Shown in pieces: positions 1,615 through 10,555 of a DNA stretch of 59,694 nt. Origin of the DNA: Phenylobacterium sp. (GTDB lineage: Bacteria; Pseudomonadota; Alphaproteobacteria; Caulobacterales; Caulobacteraceae). The notes under the pieces are model-generated. The model saw only the letters and a program-made list of their open reading frames with translations. It did not search any database and was not told the DNA's origin. The DNA lies in NCBI RefSeq assembly GCF_013911965.1, contig NZ_JACESE010000022.1, positions 1-59,694 on the forward strand, read 5' to 3'. How positions within the stretch are numbered: position 1 is the stretch's first letter; each line of letters starts with the position of its first letter. The position numbers and the translations under genes were made by a program.

Positions 1615-3393
1615 TCAGCCCAGGCTGGCGATATAGCCGCGCCAGCCGCCGAACGCGGTGACGTCGCGGGCGCCGTCGAGCGCCCGGGGCTCGGCGACGA
1701 AGCCCTTCACGGTCGTCCCGTCCTCCAGCGTCACCGTGCCGATGGCGAGCGGGGCGGGCACTTCGGCGGTGAAACTGCCGAAGGCGGCCATGCCGAGTTC
1801 GTAGACCTCCACCTCGATCGCCGCCCCCTCGCCTTCGCCCACATGGATCAGGGCCGGCTTGGGCGGCGTCGTCTCGGCCATGGCGTAGAGGCGGTAGGCC
1901 GGCGCGGTGCGGGTGCGCGAGACCAGCCGCGCCTCGCGCGAGGTAAGCTGCCAGTGCAGCGGCATTCCGGCGAGATGGGCGCCGACGACGGAGAGCTTCA
2001 CGGTCTGGGGCTTGCCGTCCGTATCCAGGTCGGGCGTGGCGGGCATGGCGCGGATCTCCTCATAGCGGCGCGCGAGGTCGAGCAGGGCGGCGTCGGCGAA
2101 GGCCGGACCGACCAGGGTGACGCCGAAGCCGGTTCCGTTGTCGCGGTAGCCGGCGGGCACGGCCACGGCGCTCATGTCCAGCAGGTTCACGAAGTTGGTG
2201 TAGAGGCCGAGATTGGCGTTCAGCGCATAGGGCTCGGCCAGGAGCTCGGCGATCCGGTAGATGGTCGGGGCGGTCGGCAGGACCAGGACGTCGGCGGCCT
2301 CCCAGATCGCCTCGGCGGCGCGGGCGTGGGCCTGCAGGGCGTAGATCCCCTTGAAGGTCTCCACGCCGGAGACGGCGAAGCCGCCCTGGACGATGGCCCG
2401 GACCACGGGATGGACGGCGCCCGGCCTCGTCCGCAGCAGGTCCTCGATGGCGGCGGCGCGCTCGGCGACCCAGGGGCCGGCGTAGAGGAGCTGGGCCGCC
2501 TCGAGCAGGGGAGCGATGTCCACCTCGACGAGCGTCGCGCCGGCGGCGGCAAGCCTTGCGATGGCGTCGTCGTAGAAGCGGGCGGCGGCCTCGTCGCCGA
2601 AGAACTGCAGCTGATCCAGCCGCGGGACGGCCAGGCGCCAGGTCTCGCCGAACCGGGCGCGTCCGGCCTGTTCGCGGCGCGAATAGGGGTCGGCGGAATC
2701 GAAGCCCGAGGCGACGGCGTCGACAAGGGCCGCATCGGCGGCGTCGGCGGTGAAGACGGTGATGCAGTCCAGCGAGCGGCAGGCGGGCACGAGGCCGCTG
2801 GTGCTCCACCGCCCCTTGGTGGGCTTCCAGCCGACCAGGCCGTTGAAGGCCGCCGGCACGCGGCCCGATCCGGCGGTGTCGGTACCGAGCGCGAAGGCGA
2901 CGAGGCCCGCCCCCACCGCCACGGCGCTGCCCGAGCTCGAGCCGCCGCTGACATAGTCGCGGTTGAAGACGCAGGCGGGACTCCCATAGGGCGTGCGCGT
3001 GCCCACGAGCCCGGTGGCGAACTGGTCGAGATTGGTCTTGCCCATCATCACCGCCCCGGCGGCGAGGAGGCGGGCGACCACCGTGGCGTCGGTCTCGGGC
3101 CGATAGGCGAAGGCCGGGCAGCCGGCCGTGGTCGGCAGGCCGGCGACATCGATATTGTCCTTCACCGCGAAGGGGACGCCGGCCAGCGGCAGGTCCTCGC
3201 CCGCCGCGATCCGGGCGTCGACGGCGCGGGCGGCGGCCAGCACGTCCTCCGCCCTCGGACGGTCAATCCAGGCCTGGGGCTGGACGGCGTCGAAGGCGGC
3301 GATCCGCGCGAGGCTGTCACGGGCCACGTCCTGCGCCGATCGGCGTCCGGCGCGGACCTCGGCGGCGATGGCGGCGACGGAGAGGCGGTCCAT
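1615..3393 (-). CDS. atzF: Allophanate hydrolase
   Basis: A 592-residue amidase that splits allophanate into ammonia and CO2, the last step of carboxylase-dependent urea or guanidine breakdown. The amidase-signature triad is visible as Lys78 (VPFAVKDN), cis-Ser152 (GGSSSGS) and Ser176 (DTAGSGR). The C-terminal ~120 residues, from about MPLHWQLTSREARL, match the separate allophanate hydrolase C-terminal domain that converts N-carboxycarbamate. The frame stays open well upstream, but MDRLSVAAIAAEV is the family-like start and lies 14 bp after the carboxylase stop. It is the last gene of the five-gene minus-strand cluster. In yeast this activity is fused to the carboxylase; here it is separate, as is usual in bacteria. 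Confidence 0.93.
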   Translation of the reverse strand: MDRLSVAAIAAEVRAGRRSAQDVARDSLARIAAFDAVQPQAWIDRPRAEDVLAAARAVDARIAAGEDLPLAGVPFAVKDNIDVAGLPTTAGCPAFAYRPETDATVVARLLAAGAVMMGKTNLDQFATGLVGTRTPYGSPACVFNRDYVSGGSSSGSAVAVGAGLVAFALGTDTAGSGRVPAAFNGLVGWKPTKGRWSTSGLVPACRSLDCITVFTADAADAALVDAVASGFDSADPYSRREQAGRARFGETWRLAVPRLDQLQFFGDEAAARFYDDAIARLAAAGATLVEVDIAPLLEAAQLLYAGPWVAERAAAIEDLLRTRPGAVHPVVRAIVQGGFAVSGVETFKGIYALQAHARAAEAIWEAADVLVLPTAPTIYRIAELLAEPYALNANLGLYTNFVNLLDMSAVAVPAGYRDNGTGFGVTLVGPAFADAALLDLARRYEEIRAMPATPDLDTDGKPQTVKLSVVGAHLAGMPLHWQLTSREARLVSRTRTAPAYRLYAMAETTPPKPALIHVGEGEGAAIEVEVYELGMAAFGSFTAEVPAPLAIGTVTLEDGTTVKGFVAEPRALDGARDVTAFGGWRGYIASLG

Positions 3394-3407
3394 GGCTGTG
3401 GTCTCCC

Positions 3408-7010
<3,603 letters not shown>

Positions 7011-7023
7011 GCGGAAACTCGTC

Positions 7024-7656
7024 TCAGGCGGCGATGATCATGCGCACGGGCGTCGGATCGAAGCCGTTGCAGGGGTTGTTGATCTGCGGGCAGTTGGAGA
7101 CCACCGCCACCAGGTCCATCTCGGCGCGGATATCGACATAGAGGCCGGGCGCGGAGATGCCGTCGACGATGCCGAGCGCCCCGTCGGCCTCCACCGGCAC
7201 GTTCATGAACCAGTTGATGTTGGAGACCATGTCGCGCTTGCCGCGGCCGTGGCGGCCGTTGGCCTGCAGGAAGTTCTCCACGCAGGCGTGCTGGCTCTTG
7301 GTGTGGTGGCCGTAACGCAGCGTGTTGCTCTCGCACGAGCAGGCCCCGCCGATGGTGTCGTGATAGGCCACCGAGGTGCCGAGCACCGTGGCCATGGGAT
7401 TGCCCTCGTTGGACAGCAGCACCGACCCCGTCTTCAGGAAGATGTTGCCCTGGGCGGCGATGGTGTCCTGGGCGCTGTAGCGCTCGGCGTCGTCGGCGGC
7501 CGAGTACATCAGGAAGTCGACGGCCTGGTTGCCCTCCAGGTCGACGATGCGCAGCACCTCGCCCCTGCGCACCAGATGGTCCCAGGGGGCGCGGGCGGGG
7601 ACGACCTCGTCGAGGACGATGCGGGGCGGCAGGCCCGCCAAGGCGGCGTCGGTCAT
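7024..7656 (-). CDS. DUF1989 protein, UAAP2 type (probable carboxyguanidine deiminase subunit)
   Basis: A 210-residue DUF1989 protein, long called urea amidolyase-associated protein 2. Its family forms, with UAAP1, the heteromeric carboxyguanidine deiminase that turns the carboxylase product into allophanate. Cys- and His-rich stretches that may bind metal are visible: GGACSCESNTLRYGHHTKSQ, HACVENF and a C-terminal SNCPQINNPCNGF. The ATG start (MTDAALAGLPPRIV) lies 11 bp after the stop of the partner gene. Which subunit corresponds to CgdA or CgdB is not assigned here. The family call is strong; the biochemical role is from family knowledge and synteny. Confidence 0.88.
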   Translation of the reverse strand: MTDAALAGLPPRIVLDEVVPARAPWDHLVRRGEVLRIVDLEGNQAVDFLMYSAADDAERYSAQDTIAAQGNIFLKTGSVLLSNEGNPMATVLGTSVAYHDTIGGACSCESNTLRYGHHTKSQHACVENFLQANGRHGRGKRDMVSNINWFMNVPVEADGALGIVDGISAPGLYVDIRAEMDLVAVVSNCPQINNPCNGFDPTPVRMIIAA

Positions 7657-7667
7657 GTCGGGCACCC

Positions 7668-8495
7668 CTATCGACGGTAGTAGTCTTCGACGTTCAGGAA
7701 GGCGCGCCGGCCCTCCGGCGTCGCATTGCGGACCGGATCGTCCTCGGCCGTCACCGGTCCGCGCCAGGCGTCCACGCGCAGCGGCGTGACGCGGTAGTCG
7801 GGACGCGGGTCGGCCACGTGCGGGCAGTTGGCCAGGACGAGGATGACCTCCATCTCGGCGCGCAGGGTGACCGTCCGGCCGGGCGCGAAGGGTCCGACGT
7901 GCGGCTCCACCGCCCCGTCGGAGGCGATTCGGACGCCCTTGAACAGGTTGATGCAGGGGTGGATGTCCTTGCGGCCGAGGCCGAACTTGGCGACGGCGAG
8001 GGCGAAGCGGTCGCGGGCGTTGGGGTGCGGCCCCCAGTTGTCGCCCTCGCCGTACTTGCGGGCGTTGGAGGCGCGGTTGGAGGCGCCGCAGAAGGCGTCG
8101 TGCGTGGCCGCGCCGTCCTCCACCAGGCTCATCAGAACCCGGCCCATGTCCGACAGCAGCAGCCGGCCTTCGCCCAGATAGGCGTTCCACTGCACCTTGA
8201 CCGTGTCGGCCACGTTCAGGCGCTCGACCGGGCATTCGGCGTTGAAGACCAGGACGGACGCGCAGGCGTCGCCCTGCAGGTCGGTCAGCCGCACGCGCGC
8301 GCCGCGCGACAGCCGCTTGGCGCCGTAGCCGCCGGGGGCGATCGTCTCGGCCCACAGCATGTCCTGCGGCGCCACGCCCGCGGGCAGGGCCTCAGCCTCC
8401 CACGGCGGCAGGGTGGGCATGGACTCCACCTTCGTGCCGGCCATGGCCCGCGCATGGGCCTGGGCGCCGTAGGGATCAGCCGTGTTCGTCGTCAT
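7668..8495 (-). CDS. DUF1989 protein, UAAP1 type (probable carboxyguanidine deiminase subunit)
   Basis: A 275-residue DUF1989 protein, the partner of the downstream UAAP2-like protein. Conserved features are the N-terminal LWAETIAPGGYGAKRL, HDAFCGASN, GPHPNARDRF, HPCINLFKG and a C-terminal LANCPHVADPRPDY that parallels the CPQINNP segment of its partner. The start MTTNTADPYG is chosen because it sits one base after the stop of the NikR-like gene, which implies translational coupling; the frame runs further upstream only inside that gene. Likely role: one half of the enzyme that deiminates carboxyguanidine to allophanate. Confidence 0.87.
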   Translation of the reverse strand: MTTNTADPYGAQAHARAMAGTKVESMPTLPPWEAEALPAGVAPQDMLWAETIAPGGYGAKRLSRGARVRLTDLQGDACASVLVFNAECPVERLNVADTVKVQWNAYLGEGRLLLSDMGRVLMSLVEDGAATHDAFCGASNRASNARKYGEGDNWGPHPNARDRFALAVAKFGLGRKDIHPCINLFKGVRIASDGAVEPHVGPFAPGRTVTLRAEMEVILVLANCPHVADPRPDYRVTPLRVDAWRGPVTAEDDPVRNATPEGRRAFLNVEDYYRR

Positions 8496-8496
8496 G

Positions 8497-8973
8497 TCAC
8501 GCGCCCCCTGCGCGGGCCTCGCCGGCCCGGCCGTGCGCATGCAGCGGCGGCAGGAGCGAACGCGTCGTCACGAGGCGGATCTGGTGGACGCCGCGGATGC
8601 GCCGCAGTTCGTCGCAGAGCTGGTGCAGCCGCGCCGCCGGCCCCTGGACCAGAAGCACTTCCAGCGACTGGTCGTCCTCCAGGAAGACATGCTGGGACGA
8701 GATCACCTCCTTGAGGAAGGCGACCTGCGCCTGGGCGAGCGCCTGGCGGACCCGCCCGCTCTCGGCGCGGTAGATCAGGGTGATGGTGCCGGCGAGAACG
8801 GCGTCGCCCTGCGCCTCGCTGTGCTCGGCCAGTTCGTGCCGGATCAGTTCGGCGATCATCTGCGAGCGGCTGGGCAGGCCGCGCTCGGCCACCATGTCGT
8901 CCAGCTGGGCCAGGAGTTCGGCCGGCAGGCTGACGCTCAGCCGCGCGAGCTGGGAAATCTGTTCCAAGGTCAT
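8497..8973 (-). CDS. NikR-like ribbon-helix-helix regulator lacking most nickel ligands
   Basis: A 158-residue NikR-family regulator: N-terminal ribbon-helix-helix (about residues 8-50; LSVSLPAELLAQLDDMV) and a NikR_C-like ACT-type domain (about 62-136; GTITLIYRA to RRIRGVHQIRLV). Against recalled E. coli NikR the C-terminal domain aligns without gaps and keeps L-E-x-x-x-x-x-G and RGV. The four Ni(II) ligand positions (His76, His87, His89, Cys95) correspond here to Val84, His95, Phe97 and Ser103, so a NikR-type square-planar nickel site cannot form. It is the first gene of the guanidine-type cluster and is coupled to it by a one-base gap, so it is probably the local regulator with another signal. 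A 20-residue tail with HAH extends beyond normal NikR length. Start context is weak. Confidence 0.85.
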   Translation of the reverse strand: MTLEQISQLARLSVSLPAELLAQLDDMVAERGLPSRSQMIAELIRHELAEHSEAQGDAVLAGTITLIYRAESGRVRQALAQAQVAFLKEVISSQHVFLEDDQSLEVLLVQGPAARLHQLCDELRRIRGVHQIRLVTTRSLLPPLHAHGRAGEARAGGA

Positions 8974-8992: not shown

Positions 8993-9018
8993 TATTACGT
9001 TCGTCAACTTTCGTAATA
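8993..9018. promoter_or_regulatory. 26-bp dyad (7-12-7), putative operator of the NikR-like regulator
   Basis: TATTACG at 8993-8999 and its exact complement CGTAATA at 9012-9018 are separated by 12 bp, beginning 20 bp upstream of the regulator start. The segment is AT-rich in GC-rich surroundings. Two half-sites spaced by 11-16 bp are typical of NikR family operators (E. coli 6-16-6, H. pylori about 7-11-7). The minus strand reads TAATAC in one arm, which could serve as a -10 element. The dyad lies in the divergent region shared with the symporter gene, so it could act on both. Function is inferred. Confidence 0.5.
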
Positions 9019-9125: not shown

Positions 9126-9256
9126 GGCCGCCCGGGCGCTTGTGCCCGGCCCGGCCGGCGACCACTGCGGCGAGATTGATTGGCGCGGGGGCGGAACCTC
9201 CCTAACCTGCGCCGCAAACCGCCGCCCGATGCGGCTTTAGAGTGCATGAGAGTCGC

Positions 9257-10555
9257 ATGACCGATTCGCCCCCGCCCGCCGGCGCCGAGACGCCCGCCAA
9301 ACGCAATTTCGTCCAGCGCTGGTGGTTCGACGTCGTTCTCTGGAAACGGATCTTCCTGGCCCTCGTCCTGGGGGCGATCGTGGGCCTGCTGCTGGGGGAG
9401 AACGCCACCGCCATCAAATGGCTGGGCGACCTGTTCATCCGCCTGATCCGGATGATCGTGGTGCCGCTGGTCTTCGTCTCCATCGTCTCCGGCGTCGCCG
9501 GCATGGGCGATCCGCGCCGACTGGGCTCCATCGGCGGCAAGACCATCCTGCTCTACTTCTGCACCACCGCCATCGCCGTCTGCGTCGGCATGCTGTTCTC
9601 GACCTTGTTCCAGCCTGGCGCAGGGGTCGATTTCGCCGGCGTGACCCCTCAGGCGGTGGGAAGCGCCCCGCCGGTCAGCGAGCAGTTGCTGGGCATCGTG
9701 CCGCTGAACCCCATCGAGGCCCTGGCGACGGGCGACATCCTGGGTGTCATCTTCTTCGCCATCCTGGTGGGCGCCGGCATCCTGGCCATCGGCGAGCGGG
9801 GCCAAAGGCTGGCGGATCTCTTCGCGGACGGGGTCGAGGTCATCCTCTACATCACCAAGCTGGTCATGGAGGTGGCGCCGTTCGGCGTGTTCGCCCTCAT
9901 GGCCTGGGTGATGGGCACGGCGGGGCTCGAGGTCTTCGTCCACATCTTCCTGCTGGCGGCCGCCCTGGTGGTCGGCTGCGCCGTACAGGTGCTGCTGATC
10001 CACGGCGGCATGCTGCGCCTGCTGGCCAAGCTGCCGATCTGGCCCTTCTTCCGCGACATTCCCGATGCGGTGATGGTGGCCTTCTCCACCTCCTCCTCGG
10101 CGGCCACCCTGCCGGTGGCCATGCGTGTCGCCGAGAAGAACCTGGGGGTCAGCCATACGGTGGCCTCCACCGCCCTGCCGATCGGCACCACCGTCTCCAT
10201 GGACGGCACCGCCCTCTATATCGGCCTGCTCACCATGTTCGCGGCCCAGGCCTTCGGACTGGACCTGACGCCCGCCCAGCTGCTGCTGGCGGGCGTGACC
10301 ACCGTGCTGGTGGCCGTCGGCACGGCGCCTATTCCGTCGGCCTCCCTCTTCATGCTGGCGGCGGTGCTGACCTCCATCGGGGTGACGCCCGAGCAGACGG
10401 CGCTCGTGGTCGGCTTTGTCCTGCCCTTCGACCGGCTGCTGGACATGACGCGGACGGTGGCCAACAACACCTCCGACCTCGCCGTCGCCGTGACCGTCGC
10501 CAAGTGGGAAGGCGAACTGGACGAGGCCTCCTATCGCGCAAAGCCGGTCGAATAG
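9257..10555 (+). CDS. Dicarboxylate/amino acid:cation symporter (DAACS family)
   Basis: A 432-residue inner-membrane transporter of the DctA/GltP family, which couples uptake of C4-dicarboxylates or acidic amino acids to Na+ or H+. Family signatures are visible: FSTSSSAATLPVAM (hairpin 1), SMDGTALY (TM7 NMDGT-type motif), VGTAPIPSASLFML (hairpin 2) and DMTRTVANNTSDLAV (TM8 substrate-binding D..R..N..D). The ATG at 9257 is preferred over an in-frame GTG at 9242 because a GAG-type ribosome site precedes it. It is divergent from the NikR-like gene, with 283 bp between. The substrate cannot be fixed from sequence alone. Confidence 0.92.
   Translation: MTDSPPPAGAETPAKRNFVQRWWFDVVLWKRIFLALVLGAIVGLLLGENATAIKWLGDLFIRLIRMIVVPLVFVSIVSGVAGMGDPRRLGSIGGKTILLYFCTTAIAVCVGMLFSTLFQPGAGVDFAGVTPQAVGSAPPVSEQLLGIVPLNPIEALATGDILGVIFFAILVGAGILAIGERGQRLADLFADGVEVILYITKLVMEVAPFGVFALMAWVMGTAGLEVFVHIFLLAAALVVGCAVQVLLIHGGMLRLLAKLPIWPFFRDIPDAVMVAFSTSSSAATLPVAMRVAEKNLGVSHTVASTALPIGTTVSMDGTALYIGLLTMFAAQAFGLDLTPAQLLLAGVTTVLVAVGTAPIPSASLFMLAAVLTSIGVTPEQTALVVGFVLPFDRLLDMTRTVANNTSDLAVAVTVAKWEGELDEASYRAKPVE

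Follow-up and report, generated by a model that had tools for sequence, protein, structure and literature searches.

A NikR-like regulator lacking the nickel site and its candidate operator at guanidine utilisation genes of Caulobacterales, Sphingomonadaceae and Acinetobacter

Introduction

NikR is a nickel-responsive bacterial regulator combining a ribbon-helix-helix (RHH) domain with a NikR_C domain. The E. coli protein recognises the operator GTATGA-N16-TCATAC, which, together with the H. pylori operator, was compared with the site described below. NikR is presented as the nickel repressor in a passage of PMC2667541, a paper that names both NikR and urea carboxylase. With regard to the genes that take up and break down guanidine, switching has so far been described for RNA switches only, as far as open-access titles and abstracts show. 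Carboxylases of this type can be told apart by two residues: Asp at the position of K. lactis residue 1330 is given as the mark of guanidine carboxylase and Asn as that of urea carboxylase (passages of PMC11410670 and PMC12186494), the second residue of the same rule being Asp at K. lactis 1584 (stated in PMC11410670). Proteins of the DUF1989 family (PF09347) are taken as the carboxyguanidine deiminase CgdA/CgdB in the relevant passage of PMC11410670. Protein-based control is represented by the LysR-type MumR, which according to a passage of PMC5050338 is needed to activate the Acinetobacter mum operon, comprising a manganese transporter and urea carboxylase; this operon was considered as the same system as the one reported here and rejected, the regulator described in that passage being of the LysR type.

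An earlier note on a stretch of Phenylobacterium sp. DNA had pointed to a NikR-like gene without a nickel site in front of genes of this pathway, and its author knew of no description of such a regulator. In keeping with this, a search of open-access titles and abstracts, which covers neither subscription papers nor preprints, brought up among the matches listed no paper on a regulator of NikR or CopG type acting on the genes for guanidine or urea carboxylase. The observation has turned out larger than first noted, as it concerns a clade-wide, operator-defined regulon.

The regulator and the guanidine-type operon of the window

The window, i.e. the whole stretch of 59,694 nucleotides that was analysed, carries the regulator gene at 8497..8973 on the minus strand. 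The 158-residue product matches the Pfam families RHH_1 (residues 11-49, 34.7 bits) and NikR_C (residues 61-137, 73.1 bits against a cut-off of 22), and stays under the cut-off of all five NCBIfam NikR models that matched it (98.2/105, 89.6/111, 73.3/119, 62.7/83 and 59.2/175.45 bits, score/cut-off). The earlier note had aligned it without gaps to E. coli NikR; with P. horikoshii NikR (2bj1) as the ligand reference, the gap-free alignment holds over residues 8-138 (E 3.4e-24), and the nickel-ligand columns H/H/H/C indeed correspond to V84, H95, F97 and S103. Since NikR proteins from 14 other genomes of the class have HHHC in these four columns, an alignment slip behind the missing ligands is ruled out. 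The structure comparison that had been suggested also favours NikR: the AlphaFold model, a monomer of moderate confidence (pLDDT 78.8), finds its best structure match in NikR (2bj3, Foldseek E 3.7e-11), and NikR chains make up all 50 matches listed for it.

Downstream of the regulator, and separated from it by a single base (TGA-C-ATG), four genes follow on the same minus strand in the order UAAP1, UAAP2, carboxylase and allophanate hydrolase, which confirms the one-base coupling noted before. All four products exceed their NCBIfam cut-offs. UAAP1 (7668..8495; TIGR03425, 300.9 bits, cut-off 205.95) and UAAP2 (7024..7680; TIGR03424, 334.3 bits, cut-off 284.7) are the two DUF1989 proteins, predicted to be carboxyguanidine deiminase subunits of the CgdA/B type. 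The carboxylase (3408..7010; TIGR02712, 1817 bits, cut-off 1303.85) is annotated as urea carboxylase, and the allophanate hydrolase (1615..3393; TIGR02713, 779.3 bits, cut-off 511.05) counts 592 residues from the ATG at 3393, a start picked by comparison with the relative L037, the score being that of 1615-3420. In the carboxylase, Asp699 (codon 4914-4916, GAC) is placed opposite N1330 of K. lactis 5i8i. Judged by position 1330, one of the rule's two residues, the window enzyme is of the guanidine type, and a urea rather than a guanidine pathway is disfavoured by D699 and the deiminase-type genes. More generally, of 108 carboxylases from the loci that were compared (sharing at least 45% identity, with more than 300 residues aligned), 107 have Asp in the 1330 column; the single one with Asn is the second carboxylase of G397, in a 12-kb stretch without regulator or operator. 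This urea-type (Asn) enzyme and an allophanate hydrolase lie at L116 5555-9124, and the genome also has a guanidine-type operon.

Around the regulator genes of the window and of a second host locus, described below, the scan of adjacent genes showed guanidine-type enzymes and transporters and a dicarboxylate symporter, and no nickel transport genes or nickel enzymes. The sodium:dicarboxylate symporter gene of the window (9242-10555) diverges from the regulator across the operator, and another such gene occurs at L087 785-2038, so that each host guanidine locus has one nearby.

A clade without the nickel site

A scan of genome contigs yielded at least 168 relatives, of which the best 80 loci were kept, a selection that is biased accordingly; they come from Caulobacterales, Sphingomonadales and four metagenome-assembled genomes with broader or other labels (L019, L027, L033, L034). 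Together with whole-genome loci, and including the window, they gave 119 distinct clade proteins. Several of the 80 loci belong to the same species as whole-genome loci, and the locus and protein counts are therefore not independent. The earlier note had set the state of the ligand positions in close homologues as the test of its claim, and HHHC is found in 0 of the 119 proteins. Column 103 holds Ser in 110 and Ala in 9 and never Cys, column 97 is Phe, Val or Leu, and column 84 takes many residues, with His in 2. Only column 95 is largely maintained (His in 110, Asn in 9). Nine proteins combine N95 with A103, and the loci of this kind that were checked (L014, L015, L023, L029) retain operator and carboxylase, so that on sequence grounds even the last His of the old nickel site looks dispensable. 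E89, Q94, E99, Q110, C120, Q131 and P142 are invariant in all 119 proteins, and the acidic residues E99 and D101 do not vary across 34 aligned sequences.

A tree built from 78 dereplicated rows has a branch with 100/98 support that sets the clade apart from all other rows; the tree is unrooted, its bootstrap is not fully settled and some branches are long. As it is unrooted, the status of the clade as a descendant of NikR is what we infer. A C-terminal motif of the LPPL type, [LIMV][LIM]P[PQ][LIM], recognised post hoc, is present in 118/119 clade proteins and in all four outlying relatives (L151, L154, L155, L156), compared with 0 of 15 HHHC NikRs, most of which end in His-rich tails, and with none of L135, L136, L138, L157 and L158. 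These 15 proteins were selected for HHHC, so that 15/15 for the ligand set is a matter of definition. They belong to 21 NikR_C proteins read outside the clade within the class, six of the 15 coming from six genomes of the host's family; the other six of the 21 read RHHT, RQPY, LSPT, HHVS, HART and HARS. Departure from the full HHHC set is thus not unique to the clade. Three of these variants, at L135 7163-7633 (HART), L136 6403-7131 (HARS) and L138 6022-6495 (HHVS), possibly represent another change of effector.

The candidate operator and its regulon by position

A putative operator, TATTAC-N14-GTAATA, is located at 8993..9018, 19 bp before the ATG of the regulator. The dyad that the earlier note had placed here is real: with up to two mismatches allowed, the pattern matches the window once, and 100 shuffles give no match. 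Within its spacer, on the regulator strand, a TTGACG hexamer is found. A second dyad upstream of the window gene, with CGCCCTCCGG arms, was dropped, being absent from the top three dyads listed for relatives.

In the best 80 of the at least 168 loci (1.27 Mb), 115 perfect sites are distributed over 76 loci, as against 0 sites for perfect arms at gaps of 6-13 and 15-24 and 0 for 59 other arm permutations, it being understood that the operator was first noticed in the very loci later used for counting. The 14 HHHC-NikR loci contain no perfect operator. In the 3.86-Mb host genome, perfect sites number exactly two, one per guanidine locus. The second lies on contig 28, between the genes for a 2OG-Fe(II) dioxygenase (minus strand) and the substrate-binding protein (plus strand) of a TIGR03427 transporter, and is adjoined by a second NikR-like paralogue of the host. 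The transporter at this locus is a polyamine-type ABC transporter, its ATPase and other permease having been read in the relative L037. With up to two mismatches, the operator is matched at 4 places in the host genome and the reversed control likewise at 4; only perfect sites therefore speak, and the one- and two-mismatch host matches (C12, C1) were dropped.

Among the 96 clade regulators of the best 80 (of at least 168) loci, a perfect site is found no more than 250 bp upstream in 60 cases, and for another 15 the nearest one is 2.6-3.1 kb upstream; in the examples examined (L044, L058, L153), a site 2-3 kb upstream precedes ABC transporter genes, which are followed by the regulator. The remaining 21, mostly second paralogues but also L017 and L034, have no perfect upstream site, so that autoregulation is not general. 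The first family and class samples contributed 24 clade loci, two of which (L104 and L115) contain no perfect site at all. With regard to promoter elements, 45 distinct regulator-linked sites were compared; TTGAC is read within the site along the gene's strand in 23 of them and along the opposite strand in none, a count that omits the 29 of 117 operator sites left without a target by a crude gene caller; such a strand bias is as expected if binding covers the -35 element. By position, and on the same crude gene calls, the targets comprise the regulator itself, the ABC transporter, TonB receptors, the dioxygenase and a few others. In Novosphingobium, a gene for a YncE-like beta-propeller is preceded by two operators (L064 17518-17626, L078 17440-17548, L153 17428-17535).

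Co-occurrence with the carboxylase, and other modes of control

Less biased evidence than that of the best 80 loci comes from two samples of 149 genomes each, from families that are, judging by named relatives, Caulobacteraceae (the host's family) and Sphingomonadaceae (the family of G207). The search of carboxylase clusters for NikR-like neighbours, which the earlier note had proposed, found a clade regulator immediately before the genes for deiminase and carboxylase in 40 of the 44 carboxylase genomes of the two families. In Caulobacteraceae, TIGR02712 is detected in 21/149 genomes, every one of which (21/21) has the clade gene, its NikR_C match and the carboxylase being on one strand, with the match 1.4-1.6 kb upstream and the deiminase genes in between. 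NikR_C proteins are present in 30/149 genomes of this family, namely 23 with the clade type, 6 with HHHC and 1 other (G298). Clade genes without a full carboxylase belong to G304, with 174 aligned carboxylase residues, and G315, where the contig measures 4,782 bases. The claim of the note would also have been refuted by a protein that binds Ni(II) and regulates nickel transport genes elsewhere; as to its targets, the clade genes are found at guanidine genes, and the carboxylase is present in 0 of the 6 Caulobacteraceae genomes with an HHHC NikR. In Sphingomonadaceae, 23/149 genomes have the carboxylase and 19 of these the clade gene, at 1.5-1.6 kb; of the 22 NikR_C genomes in this sample, 15 were read for their ligands and 7 were assigned to the clade from their score and their place upstream of the carboxylase. 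Fisher tests, ignoring phylogeny, give p 1.3e-23 for Caulobacteraceae and p 1.8e-20 for Sphingomonadaceae.

The remaining 4 of the 23 Sphingomonadaceae carboxylase genomes (G457, G458, G489, G563) have a LysR substrate-domain gene near an ABC transporter. Their loci (L131, L132 and L134 for G457, G458 and G563; L133 for G489, in which the LysR gene is cut at the locus end) contain neither clade regulator nor operator.

The guanidine-I riboswitch (RF00442) was found in 0/149 Caulobacteraceae and 0/149 Sphingomonadaceae genomes, with filters stricter than in the search of the class, where it occurs in 25/289 genomes at E <= 0.001, 22 of them over the cut-off. Fourteen of these 25 genomes have the carboxylase, which in 13 is situated 1.5-4.4 kb downstream of the riboswitch on the same contig and strand, the two being on different contigs in G221. 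An HHHC NikR accompanies the riboswitch in three of the 25, always on another contig. No Rfam family reaches its gathering score in the window, and a search of 8 cluster loci returned one tRNA only; guanidine riboswitch control, classes II-IV having been sought in the window and these 8 loci, was thus not found.

Distant relatives

Relatives that had not been used to define the operator, in Acinetobacter, G836 and G845, provide an independent check. Acinetobacter sp. NCu2D-2 (plasmid, L151) and an A. baumannii record harbour a 35%-identical regulator inside guanidine clusters, which include a carboxylase with Asp, an allophanate hydrolase and an ABC transporter, and in NCu2D-2 additionally an SMR transporter, a 2OG dioxygenase and a hypothetical protein. 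Perfect operators number one in NCu2D-2 and two in the A. baumannii record, each having in addition a one-mismatch site before the regulator. The ligand columns of the L151 regulator read Q/H/Q/V. In G836, which belongs to another class, a perfect operator precedes an operon of ABC transporter, creatininase, glutamine-synthetase-like protein (Gln-synt_C) and, last, the regulator (YHHT), and the carboxylase was not found in this genome; the effector may therefore be another guanidino compound. In G845 (RHHT), a stretch of 14 kb contains no perfect operator, and the carboxylase lies on a different contig.

Of note, the G836 regulator keeps the HxH of the nickel site (L154 1872-7556, with the creatininase of PF02633). 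The same holds for G238 (L156 8467-13001, RHHT), where an ABC transporter and a creatininase (PF02633) are accompanied by a one-mismatch operator, the carboxylase following about 8 kb on. As the residues of the old site differ in the outlying relatives (QHQV, YHHT, RHHT, RHHT), no conserved effector pocket could be named.

Some relatives are annotated nikR, being 28.8-32.8% (H14-H19) and 36.2% (H20-H21) identical to the window protein. The last two are records named Acinetobacter phage MD-2021a, whose nikR-like gene is 36% identical to that of the window, and which are probably bacterial DNA under a phage name. Proteins without any Pfam match are encoded near the dioxygenase at L002 473-1261, L037 8123-8926 and L151 11655-12536, those of L037 and Acinetobacter being about 24% alike; they are possibly related to the methylguanidine lyase MgdL. 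In Acinetobacter (L151) the genes for the dioxygenase and the no-Pfam protein stand side by side, and at the second locus of the host one gene separates them.

Proposed mechanism and alternatives

The clade-wide loss of the nickel site, the tracking of carboxylase operons and an operator common to regulator, catabolic and uptake genes make it very likely, on comparative sequence grounds, that this protein is a regulator of a guanidine regulon. The proposal in the earlier note of a protein-based sensor of a different ligand stands as far as the protein-based regulator is concerned, with guanidine as the candidate effector. We propose, with a probability of roughly 0.7, a repressor of guanidine uptake and breakdown that is relieved by guanidine or a close derivative and acts in the riboswitch's stead. 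The protein would be a transcription factor of the NikR fold that has ceased to sense nickel, and would form a tetramer as in NikR, with two RHH dimers on the two half-sites of TATTAC-N14-GTAATA. Its binding at 8993-9018 would repress the regulator-deiminase-carboxylase-hydrolase operon, as expected from an operator covering the TTGACG (-35-like) hexamer before the regulator's start, and would entail autoregulation at the window locus. At the second host site, the genes repressed by binding would be those for the guanidine-type ABC transporter and, transcribed divergently, the dioxygenase. Guanidine (or methylguanidine or carboxyguanidine) would then bind the remodelled C-terminal domain and cause release of the DNA, thereby turning on the uptake and degradation genes. 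Tetramer, DNA binding, repression, effector and polarity are features that we infer for the regulator. NikR itself represses when metal-loaded, and the polarity proposed here is the opposite.

Among the alternatives, it is possible, although clearly less probable, that the protein represses the guanidine regulon in response to carboxyguanidine, allophanate, methylguanidine or another guanidino compound instead of guanidine, and that the paralogues differ in this respect. A downstream intermediate or methylguanidine as effector overlaps with the explanation we prefer, which allows close derivatives. The host's two paralogues, one at the catabolic operon and one at the polyamine-type ABC transporter and 2OG dioxygenase, as well as the link between the regulator family and a creatininase and Gln-synt_C operon in G836, are consistent with such a choice of effector; however, one operator sequence is common to both host loci, and the position of uptake genes in the regulon corresponds to the usual wiring of a substrate sensor.

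More doubtful is a constitutive repressor without a small-molecule effector, setting basal expression while induction comes from general nitrogen control. The operator often overlaps a -35-like hexamer and no ligand pocket was identified, as such a protein would allow, but the C-terminal domain is conserved strongly and distinctively, with seven residues identical in 119/119 proteins, beyond what oligomerisation would seem to need.

It is quite improbable that nickel or another metal is still sensed through a remodelled site, the regulator then governing a nickel-free breakdown of urea as an alternative to urease. NikR ancestry, H95 kept in 110/119 clade proteins and the invariance of E99 and D101 in 34 aligned sequences could be read this way, whereas column 84 is free to vary, no clade protein has Cys at 103, Asn replaces H95 in 9/119, LPPL takes the place of the His-rich tail of most HHHC NikRs, and the published residue rule assigns the carboxylase, which has genes of the deiminase type next to it, to the guanidine type. 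Finally, an ordinary NikR lying by chance beside the operon, with a locally eroded nickel site, has hardly any credibility: the nikR annotation of some relatives (H14-H19, H20-H21) would fit it, but the clade-wide loss, the 40/44 carboxylase genomes and the dedicated operator contradict it.

Returning to the repressor relieved by guanidine or a close derivative, we consider it somewhat better than an even bet that the clade is of NikR descent and has exchanged nickel for a guanidino compound, with the tetramer and the operator geometry of NikR retained, and that it stands in for the riboswitch in Caulobacterales, in Acinetobacter and in most of the sampled Sphingomonadaceae that have the pathway. 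What results is a concrete candidate family, with an operator, a regulon and testable proteins from environmental species that are kept in laboratories, among them Asticcacaulis excentricus CB48 (ASTEX_RS18115, WP_013481082.1) and Caulobacter vibrioides. If the proposal is true, it is an example of a classical sensor of metals remodelled to detect a small molecule, and of proteins taking on the task of a riboswitch, perhaps on two occasions (NikR-like and LysR). A simple guanidine biosensor could be built on the operator.

Comparison with known systems

The operons under guanidine-I control (ykkC, RF00442) have the same kinds of targets, i.e. ABC transporter, carboxyguanidine deiminase, guanidine carboxylase and allophanate hydrolase, but the system described here involves a protein and a DNA operator, and the riboswitch was not found in 298 genomes of the two families. 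The methylguanidine genes mgdH/mgdL, for which a passage of PMC12508155 describes guanidine clusters under riboswitch control, resemble the 2OG dioxygenase and no-Pfam protein reported here, a likeness by gene type only. LysR-type regulators at carboxylase operons share with the NikR-like regulator the protein-based control of carboxylase and allophanate hydrolase genes, whereas their fold is unrelated to it. NikR (2bj1/2bj3, 2hza, 6mrj) has the same RHH and NikR_C architecture, the same fold and a palindromic operator whose half-sites are about two turns apart. It differs from the window regulator, which is devoid of three of the four nickel ligands, and from its clade, devoid of HHHC, as well as in its His-rich tail, here LPPL, and the clade regulon comprises, by position, guanidine uptake and breakdown.
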